Assembly (NCBI GenBank): GCA_015295805.1
Contig: DVEF01000101.1
Span: 1 to 42,399, forward strand
DNA: 42,399 nucleotides
Direction of reading: 5' to 3'
Source: Geminocystis sp. M7585_C2015_104
Lineage (GTDB): Bacteria > Cyanobacteriota > Cyanobacteriia > Cyanobacteriales > Cyanobacteriaceae
Both the position numbers and the translations under genes were made by a program. The number at the start of each line of letters is the position of its first letter. Position 1 is the first letter of the stretch. This document shows positions 3,984 to 20,564 of the stretch, one piece after another. A model generated the notes under the pieces. It saw only the letters and a list, made by a program, of their open reading frames with translations. It was not told where the DNA came from and ran no database searches.

Positions 3984-5411
3984 ATGTTTGAGAAGATAAC
4001 GCCTCCAGAGAGGGGGGGGAAGATTCAGTTTAACAATGGACAGCCCATAGTGCCCGATGAGCCTATAATTCCCTATATTAGGGGGGATGGGATAGGAGTG
4101 GACATTTGGCCTGCCACAGAGAGGGTGATTGATGCGGCGGTGGAGAGGGCCTATGGTGGCAAGAGGAAGATACATTGGTTTAAGGTGTATGCGGGGGATG
4201 AGGCTTGTGAGAAATATGGGGCTTATCAGTACCTCCCCGAGGATACCATCAATGCCATTAGAGAATATGGTATAGCCATAAAGGGACCGTTAACTACACC
4301 TGTAGGTGGGGGGATTCGCTCATTAAACGTAGCCTTAAGACAGATTTTTGATCTATACGCCTGTGTACGTCCTTGTCGTTATTATGAGGGCACACCATCC
4401 CCCCATAGGAATCCAGAAAAGCTAGATGTGATTGTTTACAGAGAGAATACAGAAGATATCTACTTGGGGATAGAATGGCAGGAGGGGTCAGAAATAGGAC
4501 AGAAACTCATTAAAATTCTGAACGAGGAGTTAATACCTGCTACCCCTGAACACAAAAACAAGAGGATTCCCCCGGATGCCGGCATTGGAGTTAAACCCAT
4601 CAGTAAAAGGGGTAGCCAAAGGTTGATTCGTCGTGCTATCCAACATGCCCTCAGACTCCCTAAACCCAAACGGGTGGTGACTTTAGTACACAAAGGTAAC
4701 ATCATGAAGTACACAGAGGGAGCATTTCGTGACTGGGGGTATGAGTTGGCCACCACGGAATTTCGGGCAGACTGTGTTACCGAGAGGGAATCCTGGATTT
4801 TAAGCAACAAGGAGGCCAATCCTCACATCACCATTGAAGAGAATGCCCGTCAAATAGAACCGAGTTATGATACCCTCACTCCCGAAAAACGAGCTCAGGT
4901 GTGTGAGGAGGTGAAAAGGGTATTAGACTCCATTTGGACTACCCATGGCAATGGCCAATGGCGGGATAAAGTCCTGGTCAACGACCGGATTGCTGACAAT
5001 ATTTTTCAACAAATCCAAACTCGTCCCGAGGAGTATTCCATCCTAGCCACCATGAATTTGAACGGGGATTACCTCTCCGACGCGGCGGCTGCTATTGTTG
5101 GCGGCTTAGGCATGAGTCCTGGTGCCAACATTGGTGACAATTGTGCTATATTTGAGGCGACCCATGGCACAGCCCCCAAACATGCGGGGTTAGACAGGGT
5201 AAATCCCGCTTCTCTGATTCTCTCCGGGGTGATGATGTTGGACTTCATGGGTTGGCAGGAGGCTGCTGATTTAATTCGTCATGGTATTAGTAGGGCCATT
5301 GCTTCCAGACAGGTCACTTATGATTTAGCCCGTCTTATGACTCCCCCCGTCTCTCCCCCCTTAAAATGTTCTGAGTTTGCCCAGGCTATTATCCATCATT
5401 TTTCCTCTTAA
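3984..5411 (+). CDS. icd: Isocitrate dehydrogenase (NADP+)
   Basis: Oxidative decarboxylation of isocitrate to 2-oxoglutarate, the carbon skeleton for ammonium assimilation in cyanobacteria. At 475 residues it is the normal cyanobacterial length. The substrate-loop Ser113 ([13 protein letters not shown]) is present; this is the residue phosphorylated in E. coli Icd. [21 protein letters not shown]-like sequence near the C-terminus carries the cofactor-binding region. The start is the ATG at 3984, with only a weak AGGA upstream. Eight consecutive Gs at 4012-4019 fall inside codons 9-12. The gene is divergent from crtE. Confidence 0.97.
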
Positions 5412-5448
5412 CCCAGGGTTTACAACTGGATATTAACACTTAATATTT

Positions 5449-5472
5449 GGCCCTTGGAGGCCTATTTTTTTT
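5449..5472 (+). terminator. Possible intrinsic terminator after icd
   Basis: A short GGCC/GGCC stem (5449-5452 with 5459-5462, 6-base loop) is followed by a run of eight Ts at 5465-5472. The stem is weak, but the position 38 bp after the icd stop is right. Confidence 0.45.
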
Positions 5473-5610
5473 AGACCATCTCGTCAGAAACCCCGGGGAA
5501 ACTTTAAGAAAAATTAGTAAAAAAAAGGTAAAAATAAGGGATAATACTGATTGCAGCTGGAGGAAAAACAATTAACATCGTAGCTAGGGAGGGAGACAGA
5601 GAGGAAAAAC

Positions 5611-6645
5611 ATGAAGACGGGATTGCTCATGAGTGGGAAGACGGAAGCCAGAGTGGAAAAGCCCTGGTGGAATCGTCCTCTGATTGGGGAGAGGACACTA
5701 TGTGAGTATTTATTTAAAGGCCATTCCCGTCTGCAGATTTGTAAGGAGGTAGTCTCTCTCCACGATTATTATTTAGAAGTTTTAGGGGGGGTCACTGTTA
5801 ATTTAAGGGCACTTTTTAACGAAAAATTCAGCCAGCCTGGTTTTCTTATTTTTGCTCGCCTTCAGGCCTATTTTCAGCGGTATTATGAGTCTAACAATCA
5901 CTACATTTTGGTGGGGAAGGAGTTGTTCAAAACTGTAATAGACAACATAGAAATTCTGCAGAAAATTCAGAGTATAGAAGATACTGCTACCAGCGAAGAA
6001 GCCCAAGAATTTTTCCAGGAGGTATTCAGGCTAGTAAGGGAGAATCATCACAAATTAATCTTTCAGGAAAAACTCAACAAACTGGAGACACAATTCCGGG
6101 GAAAAGTGGAAGATGAAAAAGAGCAGAAATTGATAAGCAACTATAGTAGCTGTTACCGCAAAGTATCGGAGATAGACAGTTTAATTAACTTCATCGAGTT
6201 GTTAAAAACAGAAAAGCTAAACAACTGGGAGGTGTTTGCTAAAATCAAAAAGTTTCTCCACTGTCAACAGGTGGAATCCTTGGAGACTTTGAAACCCCTA
6301 TTGTTGTTTACAAAAACAGAGGAAACATTTTTCCTCTCCCTGGCGGATAGGATTCTACACATGAGAGAAGATAAGGAGACTCAGCTGACAAACATAGCAA
6401 GAATTATCCAATATATAGGGTTAAATGACAAATACGCCCAGATTTATCCTCAATTCCAGCTATTTCTCCGCCAGTTGAGGAAATGGGAAAAGGTGTACCA
6501 TTCTATCACCTCCATCAGAAATCAGTATGACGGCAATCAATTTATTATCCCCCCCAGTTTCAAAACCAGACTACCAGGGTTTGAATTATATAAAACCTAC
6601 CATGACTATCTGGAACATGCCCATTTTGTCAAGATGATCTATTAG
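5611..6645 (+). CDS. Uncharacterised soluble helical protein
   Basis: A 344-residue protein that I do not recognise. It has no signal peptide and no membrane segment. Most of it looks alpha-helical, with charged stretches (for example residues 110-180, rich in Glu, Lys and Gln) and little glycine. No nucleotide-binding or metal motif stands out. GAGAGGAAAAAC precedes the ATG at 5611; an internal Met at codon 7 is an alternative start. It lies upstream of the DUF928 and sigma-factor genes on the same strand, 84 bp before the first, so it may belong to that group. Its function is unknown. Confidence 0.7.
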   Translation: MKTGLLMSGKTEARVEKPWWNRPLIGERTLCEYLFKGHSRLQICKEVVSLHDYYLEVLGGVTVNLRALFNEKFSQPGFLIFARLQAYFQRYYESNNHYILVGKELFKTVIDNIEILQKIQSIEDTATSEEAQEFFQEVFRLVRENHHKLIFQEKLNKLETQFRGKVEDEKEQKLISNYSSCYRKVSEIDSLINFIELLKTEKLNNWEVFAKIKKFLHCQQVESLETLKPLLLFTKTEETFFLSLADRILHMREDKETQLTNIARIIQYIGLNDKYAQIYPQFQLFLRQLRKWEKVYHSITSIRNQYDGNQFIIPPSFKTRLPGFELYKTYHDYLEHAHFVKMIY

Positions 6646-16623: not shown

Positions 16624-18132
16624 CTATTGACTGTCTTTCTTTTCTAGGGAGTCTATAATGCCTGCCACCACACAGTCCCCCCAGACATTTATGGTGGTGC
16701 GACAACGGTCTAAAAACCAATCTATAACTAGAATTAAAGATATGCCCTCTACAGGCAGATTAACGGCCTTTAGTACCATTACCATGGTAACCAATCCCGC
16801 TTCTGGAATGCCGGCTGCGCCAATGGCTGCTAGGGTTGCGGTAAAAAAGACAATTACCGCTTCTGCCAATCCCAACTCAATCCCATAAATTTGGGCTATG
16901 AATACTGCCGCCACTGCCTCATATAGTGCTGTCCCATCCATGTTTATTGTTGCTCCTAGAGGTATTACAAAATCGGCAATTCTACTATCCACCCTATTGT
17001 TTTTGATGACACATTCCAGGGTGACGGGGATGGTAGCGGAACTGGAGGCGGTGGCAAAGGCCGTCATCAGGCAGGGAAAACTCCTGCGCAAATACCGCCA
17101 TGGGGATTTTTTTGTGATAGTATAGAGAAATAGGGGTAGTATGACTATGCCATGAATAAGAAGGCCGAAGAAAACGGTAAAAACATACCTTCCCAGGAAA
17201 ATTAAGTCGGTGGTGAAACCACTCCACCCACCCGCTTCTCCTAAACGGCCGGCGACTAGTGCGCAAATCCCTAATGGGGCAAATAGGAGTATAATGTCAA
17301 CAATTTTTAGAATAACAGTGTTGAGGGTTGAACAAAAGTCAATTATTATTCTCCCACCCTCTACAGTAGTTAAAACCCCCCCGAAAAGCAGGGAGAAGAC
17401 GATAAGGGGCAACACGTCATTTTCTGCCATTGCCTGGAAAATATTACGGGGTAATAATCCCACTATTACTTGTTTTAGGGTTTCGGCTACGGTAGTTTCT
17501 TTTTTTTCCTCTAGTTTTTTTGTTACAGTCAAATCGATTTTTATACCCTTTCCCTGGGGGGATGGTTTAACTGTTTCTCCTCTGGCATCTCGCCAACCGT
17601 CTACTACAATTGTCTGGGAGTTTGTCTTTATTTTCTCAGAGATATTGCCGGTTATATTTTGGTCTATTAATAATACGAAATAACGCTCATCCCATGAGCT
17701 TTTGAATTCTCCCCCAAAAATGGTAACCTTGTTATCGTTGACAAAGTATTCAACATCAGCCAATAATTCTCCTCCTCTTATTTTCAGTCTTTCCGCTTCT
17801 GTATCTGCTACTCCTGGTTGAATTACATTTACTAAAATTAATCCCAGAATCACGGCAACGGCGGTGGTTATCATGTAGAAAAATATAGTTTTATATCCCA
17901 ATCCTCTCAGTTGTCGCAAATCTCCCAGGGATGTGATACTTGTTATCATTGAAATCATCACCAGTGGCACTACCAACATTAATAGGGTGTTAATAAATAA
18001 CTCTCCCAAAAACTTTACTTCTTGCCCCAATTTTGGCATAAATCCTCCCAGGATAATTCCCAATGTTATCCCGGTAAACAGACTTACAAAATAGTTCCAG
18101 GAAAACTCATAACTGTTGTTATTTCTAGTCAT
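16624..18132 (-). CDS. Dicarboxylate/amino acid:cation symporter (DAACS family)
   Basis: A 502-residue secondary transporter of the GltP/DctA family, moving C4-dicarboxylates or acidic amino acids with Na+ or H+. The family signatures are present: a Ser-rich hairpin SSSATIPVTLECV and the NMDGTALYEAVAAVFIAQ segment in TM7, then a second hairpin region GAAGIPEAGLVTM. Residues about 108-215, after IQPG, form a hydrophilic insertion roughly 80 residues longer than usual, probably outside the membrane. The start is the ATG at 18132. It is divergent from the RNase gene, 179 bp apart. The substrate cannot be fixed from sequence. Confidence 0.9.
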   Translation of the reverse strand: MTRNNNSYEFSWNYFVSLFTGITLGIILGGFMPKLGQEVKFLGELFINTLLMLVVPLVMISMITSITSLGDLRQLRGLGYKTIFFYMITTAVAVILGLILVNVIQPGVADTEAERLKIRGGELLADVEYFVNDNKVTIFGGEFKSSWDERYFVLLIDQNITGNISEKIKTNSQTIVVDGWRDARGETVKPSPQGKGIKIDLTVTKKLEEKKETTVAETLKQVIVGLLPRNIFQAMAENDVLPLIVFSLLFGGVLTTVEGGRIIIDFCSTLNTVILKIVDIILLFAPLGICALVAGRLGEAGGWSGFTTDLIFLGRYVFTVFFGLLIHGIVILPLFLYTITKKSPWRYLRRSFPCLMTAFATASSSATIPVTLECVIKNNRVDSRIADFVIPLGATINMDGTALYEAVAAVFIAQIYGIELGLAEAVIVFFTATLAAIGAAGIPEAGLVTMVMVLKAVNLPVEGISLILVIDWFLDRCRTTINVWGDCVVAGIIDSLEKKDSQ

Positions 18133-18311: not shown

Positions 18312-20564
18312 ATGAAAACAGAAATAAAACCCAGGAAATTTAGGGAAAAGCATTTGCAACAGGCTTACGCCATTAACTTGGCTGATTATTATTGTCAGAG
18401 ATTGCCTGTATTTGGAATCACTATAGATGATAGCAATACTATGGATAGAGACGATGGCATTTGGTTGAAAGAGTTGGAAGATGGCAAATTGGAATTGCAG
18501 GTTAGTATAACTGATGTTGCCAGTCTAATTCCTAAAGATTCTCCCATTGACATAGAGGCGAAAAAAAGAGTAATTACCCTTTATCATACTAATCCTCCTA
18601 CCCCAATGCTTCCCAGTCGTCTCAGTAATGATTTAGCCTCACTGGAGGAGAATAAGGAAAGATTGGCCATTACTCTATTTTTTAGGTTGAATAATCAGGG
18701 AGATGTGGAAAGTTTTACTATCAGAGAAACCATTTTTACCAACAAAAAGGCATTTAGTTATGAAGAGGTGGAGAAGATTCTGAATAATCCCCAGGATAAG
18801 CCGGAGGAAAAACTACTAGTTAAGATGCAAAAACTGGCGAAGTTGTTAGCCTTAAAAAGAGGTGGTAAATCGGGTATTTTAACTAAAGACGGCTACATAG
18901 ATGAAGACGGAAATCTAATAAAAGAAAACGCCAATGCTTACCAGATGATAGCCGAGTTTATGATTCTAACAAACAGGGTGGTAGCTAATTTTCTTGCCAC
19001 AAATAAAGTAGCAGCACTGTATCGCACTCAGGATGTGGGAATAGAGGATTTAGAATTAGCCATAAAAACCATGGGGCATTGTCTAGTGCCTGCGGTTTAT
19101 GACTCTTCTCCCAGGCCCCATGTGGGATTAGGATTGAGGGCTTACACCCATTTTACCAGCCCTTTGAGGAGATTTGTTGATTTGGTGAACCACCGCATCC
19201 TTAAGAATTTTCTTAATGGGCAATCCTCTCCCTATAGTCTTGAAGAATTATCAGAAATTGCCAAAATGGTCAATGAATTTCAGTCAAAATTCAAGATAGA
19301 TAAGTCTAATTACATGCGGGAGAAAAAGAGGGCGGAGTTGGAGTGGCAATATAACAATCTTTCAGAGGAATTGTTTAAAAATCTATCCCAAGGGGAGTTG
19401 TCAGATTTAATCCAGTATATAGCAATCAAGATAAAGAATAGATGTTGCCAACGAGTGGATTTGTTCACTAGACTTTTAGAATTAAGAAGAGGGGAATTAC
19501 AGACAAAAGACTATTACTACATCTGGTTTGTAGCAGGAATTGACAAGTTTTTTGACGACGAGAATGTGGATGCCGTTTCAGTGTTGTTAGTCAAATCACA
19601 ACTGGAAGACTCAGTGGTAGAATACAAATTTGAATATTGTGAGTTAAGGAAGAAATATTTTGCCTACTGTTACATAGACGGGAAGACAACGGTTAATCCG
19701 GAGGGAGATGCCAGGAAAAATAGAGTGAAACACAAGGCAGCGTTGGCAGCCATCAAGTCATATATCCGGGGAGAATTGACAGATAAACCCAATCCCATAC
19801 CTCCCCCAACCATAGAAGACTTTATAACCAGCAAGTTGTCATGCAAGGAGGGGAAATGTGACATCAAAGATTTAGAGGGAAAAGACTTCAGCAAGTTGAT
19901 AGAATTTTGTCTAAAAACCCAATTTGACAGTCTAGTGATAGAGGAAATTAACAGAAGAATTAAAAGTCTGACAGTGAAAGACTTATACAATATATGGTTT
20001 GTGGGGAGACTCAGGGTATGTCTGGATGATACTGATGTAGATTCTCTAGGATTAAATGCAGTTTCTGTGGTGTTAACTTACTCACAAAAAGAAAACCTTC
20101 CCCTGGAATTTAAAATAGAATATTCTCCTTCTCACAAACAATATTATGCCCACTGTTATATCAATAATCTAACCCATCCTTATCCCCAATGGGACAGTAG
20201 AAAAAATAAAGCCAAACAAAAGGCATCCCTTGCCTACATTAAGAGTTATTTGGAAAACACCCTCACCAATAATCCCCAGGCTATTGACAATCTCGTTGAT
20301 ACTGCCAAAAATAGTCTCATTTTAAAAAAACCGGAAAAACCCACAACTCGAGACTGGGTATCAAAACTCCATCAACTTTGTCAGAAAAACAACTGGCAAA
20401 TCCTCAATTATAGATTTATAAGCCTCAATGGCATTTTTTCCTGTGTTGTTTCTCTTGAATTGGAGGGGAAATCGCTGCAATCTCAGGGTTATGGAAGAAG
20501 CAAAAAAGAGGCAAAACAGTGCGCCTGTAGGGTTTTCCTCATCCAACACCAGTTATTAGAATAA
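18312..20564 (+). CDS. RNase II/R-type RNB nuclease with C-terminal double-stranded-RNA-binding-like modules
   Basis: A 750-residue protein. The RNB catalytic core occupies about 20-345: the metal-binding cluster ITIDDSNTMDRDD puts Asp39, Asp45, Asp47 and Asp48 in the register of E. coli RNase II Asp201/207/209/210, and YTHFTSPLRRFVDLVNHRIL (from Tyr278) carries the conserved Arg. The usual N-terminal cold-shock domains and C-terminal S1 domain are missing. Instead there are two similar modules (about 390-488 and 551-648), each ending in a basic helix of type KNxxKxKAxLAxIKSY, then a typical dsRBD (about 676-750, GYGRSKKEAKQCACRVFL). It probably degrades structured RNA 3' to 5'. Its target is unknown. 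Confidence 0.85.
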   Translation: MKTEIKPRKFREKHLQQAYAINLADYYCQRLPVFGITIDDSNTMDRDDGIWLKELEDGKLELQVSITDVASLIPKDSPIDIEAKKRVITLYHTNPPTPMLPSRLSNDLASLEENKERLAITLFFRLNNQGDVESFTIRETIFTNKKAFSYEEVEKILNNPQDKPEEKLLVKMQKLAKLLALKRGGKSGILTKDGYIDEDGNLIKENANAYQMIAEFMILTNRVVANFLATNKVAALYRTQDVGIEDLELAIKTMGHCLVPAVYDSSPRPHVGLGLRAYTHFTSPLRRFVDLVNHRILKNFLNGQSSPYSLEELSEIAKMVNEFQSKFKIDKSNYMREKKRAELEWQYNNLSEELFKNLSQGELSDLIQYIAIKIKNRCCQRVDLFTRLLELRRGELQTKDYYYIWFVAGIDKFFDDENVDAVSVLLVKSQLEDSVVEYKFEYCELRKKYFAYCYIDGKTTVNPEGDARKNRVKHKAALAAIKSYIRGELTDKPNPIPPPTIEDFITSKLSCKEGKCDIKDLEGKDFSKLIEFCLKTQFDSLVIEEINRRIKSLTVKDLYNIWFVGRLRVCLDDTDVDSLGLNAVSVVLTYSQKENLPLEFKIEYSPSHKQYYAHCYINNLTHPYPQWDSRKNKAKQKASLAYIKSYLENTLTNNPQAIDNLVDTAKNSLILKKPEKPTTRDWVSKLHQLCQKNNWQILNYRFISLNGIFSCVVSLELEGKSLQSQGYGRSKKEAKQCACRVFLIQHQLLE

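Follow-up and report, generated by a model that had tools for sequence, protein, structure and literature searches.

An RNB-family protein of Geminocystis with C-terminal double-stranded RNA-binding domains: a distinct clade of predicted exoribonucleases

The window analyzed here is a 42,399-nucleotide stretch of the genome of Geminocystis sp. M7585_C2015_104 (assembly GCA_015295805.1, contig DVEF01000101.1). On its forward strand, at 18312-20564, it carries a gene that reads as a single intact frame of 750 codons, with an ATG start and no internal stops. The encoded protein, hereafter the window protein, consists of an RNB exoribonuclease core followed by three predicted double-stranded RNA-binding domains (dsRBDs). 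The features of the gene are as follows.

18312..20564, + strand: whole gene, putative RNB-dsRBD exoribonuclease of 750 amino acids (open reading frame; full-length form in 15/15 genomes of its own family)
18408..19301, + strand: RNB catalytic core, residues about 33-330 (Pfam RNB; structural match to RNase R 8cdv)
18426..18455, + strand: catalytic Asp39, Asp45, Asp47 and Asp48 (alignment of 55 family members)
19026..19118, + strand: shortened tri-helix "wedge" region, residues 239-269, 31 residues (alignment; one low-confidence helix in the model)
19155..19172, + strand: TSPLRR motif with catalytic Arg286 (alignment of 55 family members)
19374..19547, + strand: helical part of module 1, residues 355-412 (profile comparison, AlphaFold model)
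19572..19769, + strand: divergent dsRBD-like fold of module 1, residues 421-486 (model topology; Loquacious profile match)
19878..20030, + strand: helical part of module 2, residues 523-573 (profile comparison, model)
20058..20252, + strand: predicted dsRBD of module 2, residues 583-647 (Pfam dsrm E 1.2e-5; model)
20346..20555, + strand: C-terminal canonical dsRBD, residues 679-748 (Pfam dsrm E 4e-10 alone; DCL3 structural match)
20502..20516, + strand: putative KKxAK RNA-contact motif of the third dsRBD, residues 731-735 (conservation in 18 relatives)

The window protein belongs to the RNB (RNase II/R) family: the Pfam RNB model is matched at E 4e-65 (220.7 bits against a cut-off of 29.3), and the four metal-binding aspartates and the catalytic arginine are all present. 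The predicted core superimposes on RNase R 8cdv with Z 34.0 and a root-mean-square deviation (rmsd) of 2.4 over 301 aligned residues (VIA-align on the AlphaFold model). We take D201, D207, D209, D210, Y253, Y313 and R500 of E. coli RNase II to correspond to Asp39, Asp45, Asp47, Asp48, Tyr91, Tyr150 and Arg286 of the window protein; the columns that we take to be F358, E390 and E542 are aligned uncertainly and were not used for the reading. Across 55 distinct members of the group defined below, the residue is kept in 55 at D201, 54 at D207, 55 at D209, 55 at D210, 55 at Y253, 49 at Y313 and 55 at R500, i.e., a single Asp-to-Glu change is found among all the metal-binding aspartates and arginines. 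The original prediction, made from the letters of the sequence, had named these four aspartates and the TSPLRR arginine, and the larger alignment bears it out. Selection on the gene, estimated against the nearest relative (86% identity), is purifying, with dN/dS of 0.09 overall, 0.06 in the core, 0.06 in module 1, 0.21 in module 2 and 0.11 in the third dsRBD (the value for the linker is not computable). The score against the VacB/RNase II superfamily model TIGR00358, which spans more than the RNB core, falls short of the cut-off (188.9 against 368.6 bits). Beside Rnb and Zam, this genome thus encodes a third member of the RNB family, which we consider very probably active as a 3'-5' exoribonuclease.

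The domains that usually flank an RNB core were searched for and are not detected. No Pfam model of a cold-shock domain (CSD), OB fold or S1 domain matched the whole protein, residues 1-38 or residues 331-750 up to E 10, whereas the same library found OB/CSD and S1 models in both other RNB proteins of the genome; the absence of N-terminal cold-shock and C-terminal S1 domains, proposed from the sequence alone, thus stands. A genome-wide S1 scan gave eight matches, none of them in the window gene, and it also missed the weak S1 of Rnb. The genome encodes three RNB proteins, i.e., the window protein, Rnb (a 679-codon frame) and a Zam-like protein (a 763-codon frame). The Zam-like paralogue (L001; 766-3054 on contig C102) has OB_RNB, CSD2 and S1 by Pfam and has lost the equivalents of D209, D210 and R500, two metal-binding aspartates and the catalytic arginine. 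It is therefore probably not a nuclease, in line with the degenerate active sites of Zam proteins described in the available part of a published report (PMC9145284). The Rnb paralogue (L002; 1177-3168 on contig C3) comprises a CSD-like barrel, a winged helix, a double helix-turn-helix (HTH), the RNB core and a weak S1 (E 0.007), with a strong match to CSD_RNase_II; its layout is unlike that of E. coli RNase II with its two CSDs. The only other dsRBD match in the genome lies in a 248-codon frame on a different contig, probably RNase III.

Three known identities were tried for the window protein and rejected. RNase R is contradicted by the lack of CSD1, CSD2 and S1, by a TIGR02063 score of 189.8 against 597.85 bits, by the tri-helix region (31 against 70 residues) and by the separate position in the tree. 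Exoribonuclease II (RNase II) is contradicted by TIGR02062 (118.2 against 641.9 bits) and NF003455 (130.9 against 542), as well as by domains and tree. Zam is contradicted by the intact active site, the missing CSD and S1 domains and a position outside the Zam group (support 100/100).

What follows the core instead is an array of three modules. Modules 1 (about 355-492) and 2 (about 522-655) each consist of a helical part and then a dsRBD fold (421-486 and 583-647), and they are a tandem duplicate of each other, aligned by hhalign with probability 100 over 127 columns at 40% identity. The original prediction had recognized two related modules; the duplication holds, and the boundaries it had given, 390-488 and 551-648, have to be widened to take in the helical parts. 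When scanned alone, both the C-terminal 75 residues (E 4e-10) and module 2 (E 1.2e-5) exceed the 23-bit cut-off of Pfam dsrm, in keeping with the typical dsRBD that had been proposed at 676-750 and that we place at about 679-748. Within the third dsRBD, K731, K732 and A734 are invariant in 18/18 aligned relatives and K735 is nearly so, and these residues form the KKxAK motif that we take to be an RNA-contact motif of dsRBDs.

A profile built from 40 module sequences matched dsRBD proteins in the Protein Data Bank (PDB): Loquacious (E 1.4e-5 for the chain, 0.0093 for the best single domain), ADAR (2.2e-5), RDE-4 (3.1e-5) and TRBP (5.6e-5); an unrelated designed repeat protein was also matched (3.4e-5), over the helical part. 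In single scans, six of the 40 modules match dsrm with E ≤ 1 (lowest 6e-6); module 1 of the window protein is not among them. Both AlphaFold models, of the whole protein and of residues 355-750 (mean pLDDT 83.7, pTM 0.54 for the latter), show the alpha-beta-beta-beta-alpha topology at 421-486, 583-647 and 682-745. The two top Foldseek matches are TRBP (346 columns, E 2.7e-7) and Loquacious-PB (357 columns, E 1.9e-5), with rmsd of about 25 Å and low TM-scores, as would be expected for models whose domains match singly but are arranged differently. By VIA-align, the third dsRBD matches the DCL3 dsRBD with Z 11.7 and rmsd 1.8 over 70 aligned residues. Since the VIA-align matches cover mainly the core and the third dsRBD, the assignment of dsRBDs 1 and 2 relies on the long Foldseek alignments, the topology and the profiles. 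On these grounds module 1, too, is predicted to be a dsRBD; structure prediction, the check that had been proposed for both modules, returned the dsRBD fold and not some other one.

The second departure from the classical enzymes lies within the core itself. We measured the tri-helix span in the alignment as the segment lying between Arg484 and His555 of E. coli RNase R, which encloses K544. It is 31 residues long in 15/15 members of the window's family, 39 shorter than the 70 residues of E. coli RNase R and the shortest of all groups compared. Elsewhere in the clade it measures 37-83 residues in the 28 other cyanobacterial members (median 46), 50-53 in five actinobacterial and 45-51 in three gammaproteobacterial plasmid members, 43 in L067, a plasmid member of Synechococcus elongatus, and 51-52 in three members on viral contigs. 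Outside the clade it measures 41 in 13/13 Rnb, 69 in E. coli RNase II, 72-78 in four Zam and 72 in 10 viral RNase R-type proteins. In human Dis3L2, according to the accessible part of the report (PMC10023572), the RNB tri-helix linker (P612-M669) parts the RNA strands, and its deletion impairs degradation of double-stranded RNA and not of single-stranded RNA, the enzyme piling up at the duplex. The same element, of which K544 is a part, is stated to matter in RNase R in the portion available of another report (PMC12320835).

The layout is not a one-off, as it had seemed from the single sequence. In a tree of 84 RNB cores (the 55 members together with 13 Rnb, four Zam, 11 RNase R-type proteins and E. 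coli RNase II), the 55 members fall on one side of a branch with ultrafast bootstrap support of 99 and 98 in the SH-aLRT test (an approximate likelihood-ratio test), and this split recurs in 99% of 200 bootstrap trees. The RNase R group was not recovered as a single clade, and the exact placement of proteins on long end branches, L067, L172 and E. coli RNase II among them, is unsure. By this comparison of cores, proteins of the RNB-dsRBD layout are a clade apart from Rnb, Zam, RNase R and RNase II. Clade membership and the shortened tri-helix region are the two points that the original prediction had missed.

How might such a protein work? We consider it reasonably probable that it is an active 3'-5' exonuclease that is tethered to duplex RNA by its dsRBDs and trims 3' tails. 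The lid of CSD and S1 domains, which admits single-stranded RNA alone, appears to be gone, and the C-terminal array of three dsRBDs, the last one canonical, would hold an RNA duplex in its place. The dsRBDs would dock on double-stranded or folded RNA, e.g., RNase III products, sense-antisense pairs, or the stems of terminators, tRNA or rRNA; the 3' tail adjoining the duplex would then enter the RNB core through its open mouth and be hydrolysed up to or into the duplex, possibly placing the enzyme downstream of RNase III. Because the OB domains that keep duplexes off the channel of RNase II are missing, a duplex could approach the entrance of the core. With a truncated tri-helix wedge, tail trimming with slow, breathing-limited invasion of the duplex would be expected rather than RNase R-like unwinding, and for this reason we do not follow the original prediction in reading processive duplex degradation from the layout. 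The enzyme may be held at duplexes by its dsRBDs and yet not degrade through them.

Several points weigh against this proposal. We infer RNA binding, activity, direction and substrates from the architecture, the conserved active site, the predicted folds and the conservation. In the Tyr313 column, six of the 55 members differ (His in five, Phe in one), and the column that we take to be E390 of RNase II holds Ala214 in the window protein, next to Glu215, which is invariant in 18 relatives. Module 1 scanned alone has no Pfam match, and the profiles of modules 1 and 2 match the third dsRBD alone weakly (probability 7 and 23 in local mode); dsRBDs 1 and 2 are divergent and therefore may not bind RNA. 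The AlphaFold model of the whole protein, built with 15 sequences, is of moderate confidence (pLDDT 79.4, pTM 0.48). Furthermore, E. coli RNase II, with a tri-helix span of 69 residues, stalls at duplexes according to the accessible part of PMC3293843, so that tri-helix length alone does not decide unwinding.

This last point bears on a rival explanation, that the protein is the equivalent of RNase R, its dsRBDs providing the grip that RNase R owes to CSD/S1 and the Lys-rich tail, with duplexes melted and degraded processively. No OB lid is detected that would keep a duplex away, and what is available of PMC12320835 states that the RNB domain of RNase R on its own is still capable of some unwinding and that accessory domains can confer duplex degradation, RNase II degrading duplexes once they are swapped in. 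The role of RNase R also looks vacant in cyanobacteria, because Rnb of Synechocystis is unable to degrade duplexes according to the accessible part of PMC3293843 and Zam proteins are degenerate (PMC9145284, likewise available in part). We nevertheless regard this explanation as unlikely, since the tri-helix span, at 31 residues, is shorter than in RNase R (70), in the other cyanobacterial members (median 46) and in the plasmid and viral members from outside the cyanobacteria (45-53), and since Dis3L2 without its tri-helix module piles up at the duplex (PMC10023572). If, on the other hand, the dsRBDs served mainly in protein-protein docking, then the array would recruit a single-strand exonuclease to RNase III, to the ribosome or to itself as a dimer. 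Docking roles of this kind are familiar from the third dsRBD of TRBP and dsRBD5 of Staufen; high structural matches of the third dsRBD of the window protein include Staufen dsRBD5 and the dsRBD of the Dicer-TRBP interface, and modules 1 and 2 are divergent. The constancy of K731, K732 and A734 across 18/18 relatives and the sequence match of the family profile to the dsRBDs of Loquacious, TRBP and PKR point the other way, and docking as the main function seems to us quite improbable. A pseudo-nuclease, i.e., an RNA-binding regulator whose catalysis has been or is being lost as in Zam, has a precedent in the degenerate Zam-like paralogue of the same genome; with the metal-binding aspartates and the arginine kept across the 55 members but for one Asp-to-Glu change, we give this explanation hardly any credence. 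The proposal of a dsRBD-tethered, tail-trimming exonuclease remains the one that we favor.

Compared with known systems, the window protein shares with RNase R and RNase II (E. coli Rnr and Rnb) the RNB core, the active-site residues and the expected 3'-5' hydrolysis, but it lacks detected CSD and S1 domains, has a shortened tri-helix region, carries three C-terminal dsRBDs and lies in a separate clade. Cyanobacterial Rnb (sll1290/alr1240, and the Rnb of this genome) has the RNB core and also a short tri-helix span, 41 residues, yet the Rnb of this genome has a CSD-like barrel, winged helix, double HTH, weak S1 and no dsRBD, and belongs to another clade. Zam is of the RNB family too, but has OB/CSD and S1 domains and a degenerate active site. 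PDB entry 2r7d, which we take to be DrII of Deinococcus radiodurans, aligns to the core of the window protein in one stretch (Z 30.4); DrII has an N-terminal HTH and a C-terminal S1 domain and, to our knowledge, no dsRBD. Tandem dsRBDs are shared with TRBP and Loquacious, which have no nuclease, and the combination of nuclease and dsRBD with RNase III, which is an endonuclease with one dsRBD. Dis3L2 is likewise an RNB exonuclease acting on structured RNA, but relies for this on mobile CSDs, on S1 and on its tri-helix wedge (PMC10023572, available part). The accessible portion of a survey of HEPN proteins (PMC3710099) describes a HEPN-RNase III-dsRBD fusion in cyanobacteria, which is different from RNB-dsRBD. 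VPA0607 of Vibrio was set aside because, in the part of PMC9894610 available, it is said to resemble E. coli RNase II closely.

The distribution of the layout was followed at several levels. The first set comprised 100 genomes, the window's own included, 15 of its family (G000-G014) and 85 others of the order. The full-length form is found in 15/15 genomes of the family, at 47-86% identity in the other 14, although two of the genomes are only 63% and 67% complete; among the 85 others, at least three have a shorter relative of 626-638 amino acids with RNB, one module and one dsRBD (L020, L021 and L022). In a class-wide draw of 388 genomes searched with an alignment profile, 27 have a member at E ≤ 1e-80 (seven of the family and 20 others); Zam-like and Rnb proteins are found among the matches nearer 1e-50. 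Two of the 20 hold contig-end fragments and six have two copies, these copy counts being lower bounds since two candidates per genome were scored.

In total 55 distinct members were assembled: 15 from the window's family, 28 other cyanobacterial (two of them on Acaryochloris plasmids), five actinobacterial and three gammaproteobacterial on plasmids, three on viral contigs, and L067. Left out of the counts are L056 and L060 (cut at contig ends), the duplicates L036-L042, L156-L159, L161, L163, L164 and L166, the Zam-like L062-L064, L167 (of CSD/S1 type by eye) and the fragment L168. By Pfam, RNB is found in 55/55 and dsrm in 54/55, L067 being the miss. Outside Cyanobacteria, chromosomes were covered by a single scan for exact peptides of the window protein, a search that picks up no more than close relatives. 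Among 72,556 plasmid records, 158 match the relative P0003, 55 of them over at least 80% of its length, matches that were not individually checked; those listed include plasmids of Acaryochloris, Rhodococcus, Streptomyces and Pseudomonas, and the product names seen for plasmid records are unspecific ("RNB domain-containing ribonuclease", "ribonuclease catalytic domain-containing protein", "Ribonuclease R", "hypothetical protein").

The viral members lie at 4001-5797 of a 536-kb contig (L165), 5004-6737 of a 437-kb contig (L091) and 978-2720 of a 126-kb contig (L076). L076 and L091 are the two with a dsRBD by profile among 80 viral loci kept from 224 relatives, the other 78 being without one, and L165 came from a separate search. 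Translated searches (tblastn) of phage genomes gave no match covering 80% of the query, either with the window protein (36 records) or with the viral relative P0003 (38 records); the 15 and 12 matches shown, respectively, lie in the RNB core.

RNB exonucleases are regarded as enzymes of single strands whose lids are made of OB folds. A clade that swaps this lid for dsRBDs would be a second way for RNB exonucleases to meet structured RNA. That the window protein has relatives on plasmids and large viral contigs hints at a part in the control of antisense or duplex RNA. A far-reaching extension, which we put forward as speculation and think doubtful, is a clade of exonucleases erasing or trimming double-stranded RNA, widespread in bacteria, on plasmids (Acaryochloris, Rhodococcus, Gordonia, Streptomyces, Pseudomonas, Vibrio) and on contigs resembling jumbo phages; its targets there would be duplexes, antisense or produced by RNase III, that control replication or gene expression. 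In one cyanobacterial family it would then have become a fixed chromosomal enzyme that takes the vacant place of RNase R by a different mechanism, gripping RNA through dsRBDs where RNase R has its OB lid and wedge. The window protein belongs to the RNB family and is built of known domains; as far as we found, the RNB-dsRBD layout is undescribed. Literature searches aimed at the layout, mostly without subscription papers and with sources often available only in part, returned no published description of an RNB-dsRBD protein, and within that literature the original prediction, which knew of no characterized bacterial enzyme with this layout, is supported. A 2022 review of RNA decay (PMC10989914) notes, in the part available, that sequenced cyanobacterial genomes have two or three RNB proteins each and calls it unclear whether one of them is RNase R-like. 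Because the window protein is a candidate, this question is now testable.

Some further observations concern the mobile copies and the surroundings of the gene. Nine separate plasmids of two Acaryochloris strains hold related RNB genes; the copy on pREC3 of Acaryochloris marina (L065, 5620-7923) is near recA and a RecD-like helicase, and that on pREC4 (L066, 5998-7869) is near parA/parB. The linear megaplasmid pRHL1 of Rhodococcus jostii RHA1 has three RNB genes (L068, L160 and L162), each with RNB and dsrm by Pfam. L067 (5989-7377 on the Synechococcus elongatus plasmid pIITB3_1) is a 462-amino acid RNB protein whose dsRBD-like tail is seen by eye only; it lies near a CyRepA1 plasmid replication gene and may be a minimal or eroded member of the clade. 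The neighbors of L165 and L091 include a ThyX-type thymidylate synthase, a homing-endonuclease-like protein and a dNMP-kinase-like protein, which suggests, without proving it, that these contigs are jumbo phages. An anti-phage defence label was considered and dropped, as PADLOC (E 0.01) assigned 0 families in 4/4 members scanned. No conserved operon partner was found when nine neighboring stretches, seven of the family and two from outside it, were compared with the window; a nearly whole neighborhood is common only to the nearest relative. The neighbor at 16624-18132, named by us as symporter-like, recurs in three of the seven family stretches, the nearest relative included.

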